From the NCBI GenBank assembly GCA_009694305.1, contig SHVL01000027.1:1-32246 (forward strand): a stretch of DNA of 32,246 bases, read 5' to 3'. This stretch comes from Thermoleophilia bacterium (GTDB taxonomy: Bacteria > Actinomycetota > Thermoleophilia > Gaiellales > Gaiellaceae). This document shows, piece by piece, positions 8,905 to 32,246 of this stretch (positions are counted from its first letter, which is position 1; each line of letters starts with the position of its first letter). The notes beneath the pieces were generated by a model. It made no database searches. It worked only from the letters and a program-made list of their open reading frames with translations, and was not told where the DNA came from. The position numbers and the translations under genes are program-made.

Positions 8905-9924
8905 CTAGCCGTCTGCAGCGCTCTCGACCAGAGCGAGTGTCTCGGCCACCGTTTCCTCGTCTGCGCCGACCAGGGTCAGATGCCCGATCTTGCGCCCGCG
9001 CCTCGGCTCCTTCCCGTAGAGGTGGAGGTGCGCGCCCGGAAGCCCGAGCAGCTGTTCCGACGGCGGGGCTCCACCGATCAGGTTGAGCATCACCGACGAG
9101 CCGACAGCCCCGGTCGCACCGAGCGGCAGGCCGAGGATCGCCCGCAGATGATTCTCGAACTGGCTCGTCACCGCTCCCTCGATCGTCCAGTGGCCCGTGT
9201 TGTGGACGCGCGGTGCGAACTCGTTCGCAAGCAACCTGCCTCCCACGTCGAAGAGCTCGAACGCGAGAACGCCGACATAGCCGAGCTCGTCGAGCAGCCT
9301 CCCGGCAAGCTCCTCGGCCTCCGCCTGCGGCGCTCCCTGCACCGGCGAGCGAGAGACCCGGAGGATGCCGTCACGGTGGGCGTTCTCGACGAGCGGCCAG
9401 AAGCGCGTCTCACCGTCGGTGCCCCGCACAGCGATGATCGACAGCTCACGGTCGAAAGCGACGATCTCCTCTGCCAGCTCGTGGTCGGAGATCACCTCGT
9501 CTGCGTCGAGCCGACGCTGGCCCTTACCGTCGTATCCGAGCCGACGCGACTTCACGAGCGCCGGAAGCCCTGTCTCCGCGAGAGAGCCGAAACGCGCGGT
9601 GGGGATCCCCAGCCGCCGGAACATTTCCTTCTCGACGAGACGATCCTGGCCCAGTTCGAGCGCGCGGTACGGCGGCAGGGCGCCAAGCTGCACGACGGAG
9701 GCCACGGCGACGTTCTCGAACTCGTAGGTCACGACATCCGCCCCGGCCCCGAGCCGGGCAAGTGCCACGGGGTCGTCGAAGGCTCCCACGACGAGCTCGC
9801 CGACATCGGCGGCCGGTGCGGACGGCGACGGGTCGAGAAACCGGAAGCGGAGCCCGAGTGGCAGCCCCGCGAGGCCGAGCATCCGTCCGAGCTGCCCTCC
9901 CCCGATACAGCCGACGAGCGTCAC
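8905..9924 (-). CDS. purK: 5-(carboxyamino)imidazole ribonucleotide synthase
   Basis: A 339-residue ATP-grasp enzyme that carboxylates AIR with bicarbonate and ATP to give N5-CAIR in purine synthesis. The start reads VTLVGCIGGGQLGRML, the family's N-terminal signature. EFENV, KSRRLGYDGKGQ (ATP binding) and NEFAPRVHNTGHWT (active site) follow in order. GTG 9924 is chosen because the conserved N-terminus begins there; GAGAG lies just upstream. The purE stop is 10 bases away, so the two enzymes of the step are co-translated. It is the last gene of the citA operon and converges on the Xer gene. The intervening 151 bases (8754-8904) show only a small palindrome, TCGAGCGCTCGA. Confidence 0.95.
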   Translation of the reverse strand: MTLVGCIGGGQLGRMLGLAGLPLGLRFRFLDPSPSAPAADVGELVVGAFDDPVALARLGAGADVVTYEFENVAVASVVQLGALPPYRALELGQDRLVEKEMFRRLGIPTARFGSLAETGLPALVKSRRLGYDGKGQRRLDADEVISDHELAEEIVAFDRELSIIAVRGTDGETRFWPLVENAHRDGILRVSRSPVQGAPQAEAEELAGRLLDELGYVGVLAFELFDVGGRLLANEFAPRVHNTGHWTIEGAVTSQFENHLRAILGLPLGATGAVGSSVMLNLIGGAPPSEQLLGLPGAHLHLYGKEPRRGRKIGHLTLVGADEETVAETLALVESAADG

Positions 9925-22181: not shown

Positions 22182-22754
22182 ATGCGAACACTCCTCTTGC
22201 TCGTGCTCGCCTCCCTCGCAGTCGCCGGCTGCGCTTCGGAAGCGGTCGTCGTTCCCGCCACCGTCAAGGCGCCGCCGCAGACGGCGCGCCCCGACTGGAA
22301 AGAGCCCTACCCGGCCGTTGCGCCTGCGCTCGTCTTCGGCGTTACGCGCTTCACGGTCACCCGCGAGGGATGGAAGGCCGACATCTCGGTCGAGAACAGG
22401 TCGGGTGTCGGCTGGAAGGTGGGCGATCTGAGGGCAGGAGGGCAGGCTTTCGGCGTGCTGCTCTTTCCCGACGACGATCTGGACGCGCTCGAGCGTCGCA
22501 GCCGCAGCGGCGACCTTCCCGCGATCCGCGCCGCGACGAGCTACAACCCCGCGCTCCCACTCGTGCTCGGGCCGGACAAGACGTGGCAGGGGACGATTGC
22601 CGCCCCGGGCGCGCTCGCAGGGGGCCTCTGGATCAGACTCTCCTTCGGGCCCTTCATCAGTGTCGGCAAGCCACCCGAAGGGGCCGCAGCACAGGTTGTC
22701 TGGTTCACGGATCACGCGCTGAGGCTCGAACAGGTCGCAGCCGAACCGGCCTAG
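22182..22754 (+). CDS. Putative lipoprotein
   Basis: A 190-residue protein. Starting from ATG 22182 it has a short basic start (MR), a Leu-rich signal sequence and a lipobox LAVAGC, with the lipidated Cys at about residue 17. The mature part has beta-strand-like character (RFTVTREGWKADISVENRS) and a segment about favoured values (LPLVLGPDKTWQGTI), suggesting an Ig-like or DUF4352-like fold, but no family is recognised. It should be anchored on the outer face of the membrane. ATG 22182 is preferred over 22164 because of AGAGAG just upstream and the proper signal peptide. It is followed by gldA after 84 bases. Confidence 0.72.
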   Translation: MRTLLLLVLASLAVAGCASEAVVVPATVKAPPQTARPDWKEPYPAVAPALVFGVTRFTVTREGWKADISVENRSGVGWKVGDLRAGGQAFGVLLFPDDDLDALERRSRSGDLPAIRAATSYNPALPLVLGPDKTWQGTIAAPGALAGGLWIRLSFGPFISVGKPPEGAAAQVVWFTDHALRLEQVAAEPA

Positions 22755-22826
22755 CGGCGGACTCGCGACCATCGCACGGTCCGGAGGCCCTGCCAGGCCC
22801 CTCCCGAAATCGAAAACACAGGCTGA

Positions 22827-22832
22827 TACGGT
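22827..22832 (+). promoter_or_regulatory. -10 box of the glycerol dehydrogenase gene
   Basis: TACGGT ends six bases before ATG 22839, with no Shine-Dalgarno sequence. This suggests that gldA has its own leaderless transcript rather than depending only on the lipoprotein gene upstream. Confidence 0.4.
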
Positions 22833-22838
22833 GACCCG

Positions 22839-23930
22839 ATGCTCAACCTCTTCTGCGCACCGGCGCGGTACGTGCAGGGCCGCGATGCAACCGATGCCCT
22901 CGGCTCCGAGATGCTCCATCTAGGGCTGGAAGGCCCCGCACTGCTGATCGCCGGCGCAACGGTGACGCAGGAGCTCGAGAAGCGATGGGCAACGACCCTC
23001 GGAGCCGCGAAGATCGACTTCTCGATTCGTGTCTTCGGGGGAGAATGCTCGCAGAGCGAGATCGACGCGGGCATGCGCGACGCGACCGAGCGCGGTGCCA
23101 GGGTGATCGTGGGCGCGGGTGGCGGCAAGTGCCTCGACGCGGCGAGAGCCGTCGCAAGCGCCCTCGACCTGCCGGTCGTGAACTGTCCGTCGCTCGCCTC
23201 GAGCGACGCCCCGTGTAGCGCGCTGTCTGTCATCTACACGGAGTCGGGCGCGTTTGACCGCTACCTCTTCTACCGTCGCAATCCCGACCTCGTGCTCGTG
23301 GACACCGGCGTCGTTGCCCGGGCCCCTGTCCGCTACCTCGTCTCCGGCATGGGCGATGCGCTCGCCACGTGGTTCGAGGCGCGGACGGTGATCGAGGCGC
23401 GCGGGTCAAACCAGCTCGGTGGCGCACCCACTGTGACGGCGGGTGCCCTCGCCCGGCTCTGTTATGAGACGCTGATAGCCGACGGCCTTGCGGCGAAGGC
23501 GGCCGTAGAAGCCCGCTCGGTCACTCCGGCACTCGACCGGGTCGTGGAAGCCAACACCCTGTTGTCGGGCCTCGGGTTCGAGTCGGGGGGCCTCGCGATT
23601 GCCCACTCCGTCCACAACGGGTTGACCGTCGCAGCCGGGACTCACGCCTCGCTGCATGGAGAGAAGGTGGCTTTCGGACTGCTCGTACAGTTGATCGTGG
23701 AAGGCCGGCCGGAATCCGAGATCGACGAGGTCGTGGCATTCAGCCGATCCGTCGGCCTGCCTCTCACGCTCGCCCGGGTCGGCCTGAGCGAGCACGAGCC
23801 CGACCTGATCGAGGCGATCGCAGAGCGCACCGTTGCGGAGGGAGAGACCGCCCACCACGAGCCGTTCCCGGTGACGGCACCGCTGATTGCCGACGGCATC
23901 TACGCCGCCGACGCACGCGGACGGCGCTAG
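22839..23930 (+). CDS. gldA: Glycerol dehydrogenase
   Basis: A 363-residue iron-containing-alcohol-dehydrogenase-family enzyme of the GldA group that oxidises glycerol to dihydroxyacetone with NAD. GAGGGKCLD (93-100) is the nucleotide loop, and PSLASSDAPCSALSVIY is typical of GldA. The zinc ligands are Asp173 (GMGDALATW), His256 (AIAHSVHNG) and His273 (LHGEKVAFG). Its length matches the family. No dihydroxyacetone kinase or glycerol facilitator is in the window, so a role on another small polyol is possible. Confidence 0.93.
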   Translation: MLNLFCAPARYVQGRDATDALGSEMLHLGLEGPALLIAGATVTQELEKRWATTLGAAKIDFSIRVFGGECSQSEIDAGMRDATERGARVIVGAGGGKCLDAARAVASALDLPVVNCPSLASSDAPCSALSVIYTESGAFDRYLFYRRNPDLVLVDTGVVARAPVRYLVSGMGDALATWFEARTVIEARGSNQLGGAPTVTAGALARLCYETLIADGLAAKAAVEARSVTPALDRVVEANTLLSGLGFESGGLAIAHSVHNGLTVAAGTHASLHGEKVAFGLLVQLIVEGRPESEIDEVVAFSRSVGLPLTLARVGLSEHEPDLIEAIAERTVAEGETAHHEPFPVTAPLIADGIYAADARGRR

Positions 23931-24036
23931 GAGGCCGCGCTGCTCCTATCGGTGGCCCTTCTTGCAACGCGCGAGGCCTGGCCTCTCCCCCCTACCAGCA
24001 GCGCAGGCACCCACGGTGTGCTCCAGCGACGCCCCA

Positions 24037-24079
24037 CCGTGCGACCGTGGACCGTGCGACCGTGCGACCGTGCGACCGA
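24037..24079. repeat. Octanucleotide tandem repeat after the AOC-like lipoprotein gene
   Basis: CCGTGCGA occurs at 24037-24044, then as a 7-base version (CCGTGGA), then three more times exactly to 24075, followed by CCGA. The array ends directly against the stop codon of the lipoprotein gene (24082-24080), between convergent genes. The only other content of the 149-base gap 23931-24079 is unstructured. Confidence 0.85.
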
Positions 24080-24589
24080 CTACTTCAGCAGCTCGAACTC
24101 GTGCACGTAGGTGCCGTCGGCGTTCCGGGTTGTGGTGACCTGCCCGCGGGCCCCGATGTACTCACCGGTGCCGCCGACGACAGCGCGAACGTGCGGGTCA
24201 CCAGGCTTCATCTCACGCTGGTCAACCGGATAGACGCTGTCGGACAGAACGGAAATTGTGTCGTCGGGGCCAAGCCGAAACACCAGCAAGGCGATACGCT
24301 GCTCGACCTCTTCGGCCAGGAGCCCCTCATCGGGGAGTATCGCCGTCGTCAGCGTTCCTATCAAGAGGCCTACCACCTTCCCGTCGCGGCTGACCGGCGC
24401 AGCATACGAGACCACATCACCCACCGACTTGCCGGCCGGCTCAAAGTCCTGACTGACCAGACGCGGCGCCTTCTGCTCCAGGGTGAACGTCGTCGTGCCG
24501 CTACTCGAGCAGCCGGTGAGCAAGGCGACGAGCAAGGCGACGCTGAGAGCGAGAAGGCGAGAAGGCGAGAAGGCGAGAAGGCGAGACAT
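24080..24589 (-). CDS. Lipoprotein with allene-oxide-cyclase/dirigent-like domain
   Basis: A 169-residue protein from ATG 24589. The signal sequence (MSRLLAFSPSRLLALSVALL) ends in a lipobox LLTGC, with Cys at about residue 26. The C-terminal half has the barrel signature AVVGGTGEYIGARGQVTTT and the ending DGTYVHEFEL, which is typical of bacterial AOC/dirigent-like barrels. These are small-molecule-binding folds, often without known activity; it should sit on the outer membrane face. Its first codons are built from an 8-bp tandem repeat, and another 8-bp array abuts its stop. No ribosome site is seen; TACCGT lies ten bases before the ATG. Confidence 0.75.
   Translation of the reverse strand: MSRLLAFSPSRLLALSVALLVALLTGCSSSGTTTFTLEQKAPRLVSQDFEPAGKSVGDVVSYAAPVSRDGKVVGLLIGTLTTAILPDEGLLAEEVEQRIALLVFRLGPDDTISVLSDSVYPVDQREMKPGDPHVRAVVGGTGEYIGARGQVTTTRNADGTYVHEFELLK
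24551..24586. repeat. Octanucleotide repeat in the lipoprotein signal-peptide region
   Basis: GAGAAGGC is repeated four times exactly (24551-24582) with half a fifth copy to 24586, immediately inside the start codon at 24589. Read from the minus strand it encodes the doubled SRLLAFSP/SRLLALS. Eight is not a multiple of three, so gain or loss of one copy would shift the frame and switch the gene off. Confidence 0.9.
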
Positions 24590-24953
24590 CGTCGGCGACA
24601 CGGTAGCCGCGATGTCATCGTCGAGCGAGGTGATGCCAGATCGCCTGCACGTCTCGCTCACCCGGAAGGCATGGCCGCGGAAATCGCTCGGGCTCTCCTC
24701 CATGCACGCCGTCTCGCCCGTCGCATCTGTGCCACGCTGGAGGTGGGAGAGACATCGGGGCCACTGAACTCTGTCTGCACGACCTCGAATGACTCGGTGG
24801 CTCGACGCCCGCAGGCTCGCCGACGGCATTGACATCGATCCGATTGCCGTCGCAAAGCACGATCCGTGAGCAGCCGGGCGGCGCCTCGCGCACCTCGAAG
24901 CCGGCGCACGCGAGGGCAGCGGCAGGTTCGTCGCGGGCCGCCCTGCTACAGGA
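24590..24953 (-). pseudogene. Possible nucleotidyltransferase remnant
   Basis: No intact gene occupies these 364 bases. On the minus strand, near 24920-24810, one frame reads ACAGFEVREAPPG then RIVLCDGNRIDVNAV, which resembles the central part of ANT-type nucleotidyltransferases (GFE...RLVLRDxxRRVDLHPV). Further left, near 24690-24600, two other frames read GERDVQAIWHH and SLDDDIAA, similar to the family's Q-x-x-x-H and D/E-rich end. Reading them as one protein requires at least two frameshifts, and the N-terminal GG-W-x-D region is missing. It would be a degraded, truncated gene. The alignment is from memory and may be chance; otherwise this stretch is empty. Confidence 0.35.
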
Positions 24954-25784
24954 TCAACGATCGAGCACTGCAATCCAGCCGATGTTCGACTCGTGCTCTG
25001 CACCGCAACTCACCGGGGCCGCCTTCCCCTCCCGCTGCTCGACACGAGCCGTGATCACGCCGGACGGGGTCGCGAACGCGACCCGCTCGCCGTCATCCGA
25101 GACGAGCGTCAGGGCGTCCACCCCGTCACATCCGCTGGCCCTCCGCACAGCGACCTCTGCAGCCTGCACCCACGGGGCGTAGAGCGTGCGGCCCCGATAG
25201 AGATCGAGCGGGATCCGGCCTCCCGCCACGGTGTCCACGACCTCGCGGGCACGGTCGAGTGGAATCCGGCCGAGCTGGATCCCGTAAGGGAGCACGACGA
25301 CGTTGGGGGCAAACCGGTGGCCGCCGAGATGGGATGCCTGCCAGAGCCGCTCGGGAGCGACGTGTGGGGCAAGAGCCTCGTAGAGCGGAGCTCCGAGGCG
25401 CGCACAGCAGGCGTCACGCCGACCGTGCGTGCAAACAAGGAGGAGTGGGGCGTGAACGACGCCTCCGCCAGACAGGTCCGTAACGGACAGCTGCTGCAGC
25501 GAGTCGAGATCCCAGCGCAGGGCTTCTCCCCCGTGCTCCCGCACCACTGCCCTGATGACGGTGCCACCCACCCGACGGTCGGGTCGGCGAATCAGGATCA
25601 CCTTCCCCGGATAGGCACTCAACTCGTCACGCAGGGCCGACGGCAGACCGCTTTCCCTGATCGCATCTCCACCCCACGCTCCTCGCACCTCGACGAGTAG
25701 CCAGTCCGAGCCCTGCGTCGCCGTACCGGCAAGCGGCTCGTCGGCGGCGAGCGAGAGCTCGGAGCAGCCGGGTGCCGGGCTCAC
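24954..25784 (-). CDS. Sucrase/ferredoxin-like family protein
   Basis: A 276-residue protein of the sucrase/ferredoxin-like (thioredoxin-like ferredoxin, PF06999-type) family. The motif CTHGRRDACCARLG, about midway, supplies cysteines, and SHLGGHRFAPN follows; both are family hallmarks thought to hold a 2Fe-2S cluster. Its function is largely unknown; it may be electron transfer. An N-terminal domain (WLLVEVRGAWG) precedes it. The start GTG overlaps the methyltransferase stop as GTGA, so it is coupled to the carboxylase operon upstream. Confidence 0.85.
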   Translation of the reverse strand: MSPAPGCSELSLAADEPLAGTATQGSDWLLVEVRGAWGGDAIRESGLPSALRDELSAYPGKVILIRRPDRRVGGTVIRAVVREHGGEALRWDLDSLQQLSVTDLSGGGVVHAPLLLVCTHGRRDACCARLGAPLYEALAPHVAPERLWQASHLGGHRFAPNVVVLPYGIQLGRIPLDRAREVVDTVAGGRIPLDLYRGRTLYAPWVQAAEVAVRRASGCDGVDALTLVSDDGERVAFATPSGVITARVEQREGKAAPVSCGAEHESNIGWIAVLDR

Positions 25785-31985: not shown

Positions 31986-32102
31986 GTGCGCAGTGCAAGG
32001 TGGCCGTGCAAGGCCGCAGTGCACGGCCGCAGTGCACGGCCGCAGTGCACGGTGGCCGTGCAAGGCCGCAGCACAAAGCCGCAGCACAAGGCGGCCCTGC
32101 AC
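31986..32102. repeat. 13-bp minisatellite, nine units
   Basis: Nine consecutive 13-base units occupy 31986-32102. Units 3 to 5 are identical (GGCCGCAGTGCAC). Units 2 and 6 are GGTGGCCGTGCAA, and the others are variants such as GGCCGCAGCACAA. The variant order suggests growth by unit duplication. It lies directly upstream of the FMN-binding protein gene and could alter its promoter by changing length. The core GTGCAC is palindromic. Confidence 0.85.
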
Positions 32103-32221
32103 GGCAAGGGCGCGGGCCACGAACGGCAGAGAAGACAGCCGGCAACCGGCTAATCGTGATGCCCCGGTCCTCAGGCGGCAGACCTCCCACCCCGGGTCGC
32201 TCATCGGTCGCATTCCCCCCG

Positions 32222-32246
32222 GACACCACCGACACCACCGACACCA
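32222..32246. repeat. 9-bp repeat cut by the window end
   Basis: GACACCACC occurs twice exactly (32222-32239) and a third, partial copy reaches the end of the window. On the minus strand it would encode a repeating Val-Ser-Val type peptide if part of a gene beyond the edge. The remaining bases 32103-32221 show nothing recognisable. Confidence 0.6.

Follow-up and report, generated by a model that had tools for sequence, protein, structure and literature searches.

An octanucleotide repeat in the signal-peptide codons of a Thermoleophilia lipoprotein gene: a possible phase switch, probably an incidental slippage site

Most known cases of reading-frame phase variation come from host-adapted bacteria. 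An octanucleotide repeat at the start of a lipoprotein gene of a Thermoleophilia bacterium raises the question of whether copy-number changes could switch such a gene on and off, or whether the repeat is an incidental product of slippage. The locus lies in a window of 32,246 nucleotides (the whole stretch of DNA that was analysed). It makes up contig 84 in the draft genome, 2.47 Mb in size, of an uncultured member of this class of the Actinomycetota. The features at the 5' end of the gene are the following.

24080 to 24589, minus strand: gene for a lipoprotein of 169 residues with an AOC-like (PodA-like) beta-barrel; ATG at 24589, stop codon at 24080-24082
24512 to 24589, minus strand: lipoprotein signal peptide with 26 residues before the Cys of the lipobox L-T-G-C (LLTGC), as read from the sequence, the homologue alignment and the presence of Lgt
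24549 to 24586, minus strand: octanucleotide array; the gene strand has CTTCTCGC in four whole units, with incomplete units besides
24518 to 24542, minus strand: in-frame 12-mer duplication (2.1 copies) that encodes VALL-VALL in the hydrophobic core of the same signal peptide

Tandem Repeats Finder places the 5' array at 24549-24586 with a period of 8, 4.8 copies, a match of 100% and GCGAGAAG as the unit, corresponding on the plus strand to 4.75 error-free copies over 38 nt. Read on the minus strand, the four whole CTTCTCGC units and their flanking partials start directly after the ATG codon and code for the n-region of the lipoprotein signal peptide, MSRLLAFSPSRLLALSVALLVALLTGC. The sequence-only reading had described an octamer repeat that lies just inside the start codon and encodes the signal peptide, and both approaches confirm it; its unit, GAGAAGGC, is the same repeat in another register. 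The array is far beyond chance. Specifically, no array of period 2-15 appeared in two 1.53-Mb order-3 Markov simulations under the genome model (about 3 Mb in total), and when the same peptide was recoded synonymously 200,000 times, no run with an 8-nt period exceeded 26 nt, against the 38 nt observed. Thus, the repeat is a DNA-level expansion rather than a by-product of the peptide. At the RNA level, folding of the stretch that contains the start and the array gave a z-score of -0.01, and no RNA family reached its gathering score in the window.

The gene itself has a coding-type G+C distribution by codon position in its body (0.67/0.46/0.79). From the lipobox Cys onward, homologues within the class share about 40% of their residues with the product, with E values as low as 2e-23. 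Several of them are themselves lipoproteins whose signal peptides are short and ordinary, the lipobox Cys being common to them. The features expected of a bacterial lipoprotein, i.e., a signal peptide with a lipobox Cys at its end and an Lgt in the genome (2.4e-60), are both present, and from these we infer that the product would be surface-exposed. Pfam AOC_like (PF18678) was matched at 4.4e-5, with 23.6 bits against a gathering cut-off of 25.9. When the family profile was compared with solved structures, the nearest was 5k21, the pyocyanin demethylase PodA (E 4.4e-12), which was also the top Foldseek match (2.6e-8) of an AlphaFold2 model of the product (pLDDT 84.6); the model additionally matched allene oxide cyclases, dirigent proteins and Diels-Alderases. 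Judged from sequence and model together, the product would most likely be a membrane-anchored AOC-type barrel, which perhaps binds a small hydrophobic molecule. It has the beta-barrel fold in common with PodA (PDB 5k21) and detectable sequence similarity to it, but the relationship is remote, at 27% identity when the structures are aligned, and the product here is, unlike PodA, a predicted membrane-anchored lipoprotein; the similarity is too distant for pyocyanin demethylation to be transferred to it. A scan of 84,980 genomes and viral contigs with this single protein confirmed no close homologue. The AOC-like barrel family is expanded in some Thermoleophilia, where a single genome has several copies (G097, G207, G231 and others; L012-L014, L184, L185), and tandem multi-barrel proteins of the family were seen as well (G334:C211, L192). 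The same stretch also holds a plus-strand open reading frame of 261 codons (24047-24832), which was rejected as a gene since it has no coding-type codon pattern and it is the minus-strand frame that has homologues.

Copy-number changes at the array would act through the reading frame, and here a further start codon has to be considered.

24616 to 24618, minus strand: second possible ATG start, which shares the frame of the gene body at three or six whole units

In silico, ATG 24589 reads through to the gene stop with one, four or seven whole units, and the allele with a single unit gives MSRLLALSVALLVALLTGC, whose signal peptide of 18 residues before the Cys comes near the length found in the homologues. 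Any other number breaks the frame from the same ATG; three units give a product of 26 residues and five units one of 75 residues. With three or six units, translation from ATG 24618 gives a product beginning with MTSRLPCRRRCLAFSPSRLLALSVALLVALLTGC, which would also be a plausible lipoprotein signal. Clear OFF states arise only at two or five copies, and the gain of one copy would switch the gene off. The proposal that slippage by a single copy silences the gene is thus borne out in part: the frame from ATG 24589 breaks, but at three units ATG 24618 comes into frame, so that the idea of loss of one copy as an OFF state may be wrong. Neither ATG 24589 nor ATG 24618 is preceded by a clear Shine-Dalgarno sequence; leaderless transcripts are common in actinobacteria, in which a missing Shine-Dalgarno sequence is not unusual. 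No promoter consensus was found upstream of the gene. Two features by which contingency loci are recognised are seen here, namely a non-triplet repeat that lies within or beside a gene and exceeds what chance would give (four whole units, the threshold for octamers being three units in a survey of Haemophilus influenzae; PMC2651432) and, in silico, copy changes that lead to alternative ON and OFF frames.

A third such feature, retention of the repeat in orthologues or in other species, was not found. None of six congeners has a detectable homologue of the lipoprotein gene. The locus could be read through in three of them (G004, G005 and G006), in which the flanking genes are conserved and the interval is occupied differently: almost nothing lies between the conserved flanks in G004, G005 has 4.7 kb including an ABC transporter, and in G006 the interval measures 2.5 kb and contains genes that look DUF1028-like and short-chain-dehydrogenase-like (the names of these genes in G005 and G006 come from reading their translations). 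In the genome under study, the interval holds a glycerol-dehydrogenase-like gene and the lipoprotein gene. This variable interval (22754-25150) extends from the succinyl-CoA-ligase side to the Suc_Fer/methyltransferase side, and its genes differ from one examined congener to the next. Conserved flanks, a differing interval and the lack of a homologue in congeners together indicate that the gene was either gained recently here or lost elsewhere and, on this comparison of sequences, it is an accessory gene. Among 399 genomes of the class that were searched, none of the 398 others contains three exact units of the octamer, and lipoprotein homologues elsewhere in the class have no tandem repeat near the signal peptide. 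The sequence-only reading had named a lack of the repeat in orthologues as evidence against its own proposal, and on this point the outcome went against a switch: the homologues have no signal-peptide repeat and the six congeners no gene. Absence from relatives would count against a conserved, selected switch and would still be compatible with a recent or species-specific one. In this regard, many phase-variable loci are strain-specific, and retention is neither obligatory nor an absolute requirement for a contingency locus.

The array is not the only one in this genome, nor even at this gene, which has a second octamer array just behind its 3' end.

24036 to 24078, no strand assigned: octamer array of ACCGTGCG, 5.5 copies with one imperfect junction, between the stops of two convergent genes

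The second array begins 2 nt past the stop of the lipoprotein gene and is unrelated in sequence to the 5' array; it falls within the span that the sequence-only reading had covered (24037-24589) and was not mentioned there. No intrinsic terminator was found at this array, and its fold was no better than that of shuffled sequences. A census of non-triplet arrays that are perfect and have 2.75 copies or more, covering 2.21 Mb or 90% of the genome, found such arrays at about eleven places, with several periods and mostly between genes. Three are octamer arrays, one at each end of the lipoprotein gene and one between comEA and comEC on contig 40; two of these three thus lie within 550 bp of each other in 2.21 Mb. 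Arrays of several periods elsewhere, together with the ACCGTGCG array at the 3' end, point to a general background of slippage. Inside genes with a family match, the only arrays are that of the lipoprotein gene and one in a methyltransferase ORF (L086:17535-17565), which lies beyond the domain. Tandem slippage is general in this genome, whereas the position of the 5' array is exceptional. Four of the roughly eleven array places include a stop codon or sit at most 3 nt from one.

Arrays at stop codons: 24078/24080 in the window, L100:3694/3695, L126:6723/6726 and L067:9406

The arrays concerned (L100:3695-3718, L126:6668-6723, 24036-24078 in the window and L067:9333-9418) differ in sequence and tend to start 1-3 nt from a stop codon or to include one. 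The comEA-comEC locus (L067, G000:C40) carries a compound array at 9277-9418, in which two runs of the heptamer GCAAGAG are followed by 10.75 copies of the octamer GTCACGGA, and which covers the stop of comEA as well as the stretch ahead of comEC or at its start. At nearly eleven octamer units, this compound array is more promising as a site of length variation than the lipoprotein array. Towards the end of the contig, the window also holds a degenerate 13/26/52-mer array (31989-32104) and, at the very end, 2.8 copies of GACACCACC (32222-32246), a repeat at which the contig may break.

Four readings of the 5' array can be weighed against this evidence. The copy number might simply be wrong in a metagenome-type assembly, and the genome is indeed a draft of 98 contigs, but the array is perfect, at 38 bp shorter than a typical short read, and leaves a frame of 169 codons intact, which makes an assembly artefact very improbable. 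Translation might start elsewhere than at ATG 24589, in which case most of the array would be leader or the N-terminus would be different, and the copy number would alter little or would affect translation and not the frame. Such a start would fit with the missing Shine-Dalgarno sequence at ATG 24589 and with a frame that is open upstream to 25003 and contains in-frame GTG and ATG codons. However, codon-position G+C in the upstream extension (0.60/0.67/0.72) is not coding-like and is unlike that of the body, the downstream TTG starts would delete most of the signal peptide, and ATG 24589 itself places a normal signal peptide ahead of the lipobox; a different start is accordingly improbable, if less so than an assembly error.

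A true contingency locus, in which the gene would be ON at 1, 4 and 7 units, ON from the other start at 3 and 6 and OFF at 2 and 5, and in which selection would keep the repeat for the sake of a mixed population, deserves more weight, and we still consider it unlikely. In its favour are the position of the array and the frame arithmetic, the predicted export of the product, and the two ATGs in two frames, an arrangement also found in the Haemophilus lic genes. MutS-type mismatch repair was not detected in the genome, in which NucS is present; an 8-nt loop exceeds what MutS usually handles, so that the absence of MutS says little about the slippage rate. Additionally, a documented precedent for tract-mediated phase variation comes from an environmental actinomycete, at Streptomyces pglX (PMC4365076). 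Against a contingency locus, the repeat occurs in no homologue and in no other genome of the class, there are four units only, the locus is a single isolated one and not part of a set of similar ones, and neither ATG has a clear Shine-Dalgarno sequence. Phase variation by the octamer array is possible; the full proposal, i.e., an opa-like octanucleotide phase switch in the signal peptide of a PodA-like lipoprotein of a presumably free-living actinobacterium, with two starts that yield ON, ON-alternative and OFF states, strikes us as doubtful. The comparative evidence favours an incidental, lineage-specific product of slippage, with a switch as a plausible reading.

We therefore regard the array, with a probability of roughly 0.6, as a site of incidental slippage at a low rate and not as a contingency locus under selection. 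In line with this reading, the gene is in frame at one, four and seven units, the homologues are free of the repeat and the array is present in one of 399 genomes of the class. We infer that replication slippage expanded a single octamer into a tandem array where this accessory lipoprotein gene encodes its signal peptide, probably in a recent event and with no selection for switching. Growth from one to four units would have added 24 bp and thus, with the reading frame preserved, eight residues in the tolerant n-region. A further slip by one unit would cut the product from ATG 24589 at 26 or 75 residues, and a three-unit allele could be rescued by ATG 24618; the locus would be able to slip again, and switching would be possible in principle. 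What speaks against incidental slippage is that a frame-changing array at the very start of a gene for an exported protein is the classic layout of a contingency locus, that just one other of the approximately eleven array places lies in a family-matched gene, and that four units exceed the three-unit threshold. More generally, signal-peptide codons can acquire a non-triplet repeat through a frame-preserving expansion of three units, in the absence of selection for switching. There is at present one candidate locus. If the array varies, it would constitute a switch of the opa type in an actinobacterial class that branches deeply and is probably free-living, and one acting on a predicted exported barrel of a small-molecule-binding type.

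Among known systems, the Neisseria opa genes carry (CTCTT)n in the codons of the leader peptide, where copy changes shift the frame (PMC3960869). The array described here resembles them in having a pyrimidine-rich repeat on the coding strand, with a non-triplet unit, within signal-peptide codons, and differs in that the unit is of 8 nt and not 5, only four whole units are present, a single gene in a single genome is concerned and the product is not an outer-membrane opacity protein. In Haemophilus influenzae biogroup aegyptius, hmw1A and hmw2A have 12-15 strain-variable copies of the octanucleotide GCATCATC (PMC3309571), which is likewise an octanucleotide unit attached to a surface-protein gene, but their array lies in the promoter region and the one here in signal-peptide codons. 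Indels of 7- or 8-nt units cause coding-region frameshifts in the high-G+C genome of Burkholderia mallei (PMC1574311), which differs in having more than 12,000 repeats of all kinds and in that variation was observed on passage. The intergenic heptamers of Xanthomonas and Nostoc follow the upstream gene at a short distance from its 3' end, 28 nt on average (PMC4692102). Several arrays in the present genome are also found just behind genes, but the heptamers share one motif over many, mostly intergenic loci, whereas the arrays of this genome have differing motifs, and one of them is intragenic. A literature search for phase variation by repeats of 6-9 nt in environmental actinobacteria returned no precedent closer than the G-tract of Streptomyces coelicolor pglX, which varies at 10^-2 to 10^-4 (PMC4365076). 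Like the array studied here, as read for a switch, pglX concerns reading-frame phase variation via a repeat tract in an environmental actinomycete; it differs in that its tract is mononucleotide, its gene encodes a DNA methyltransferase for phage defence and its switching has been measured.
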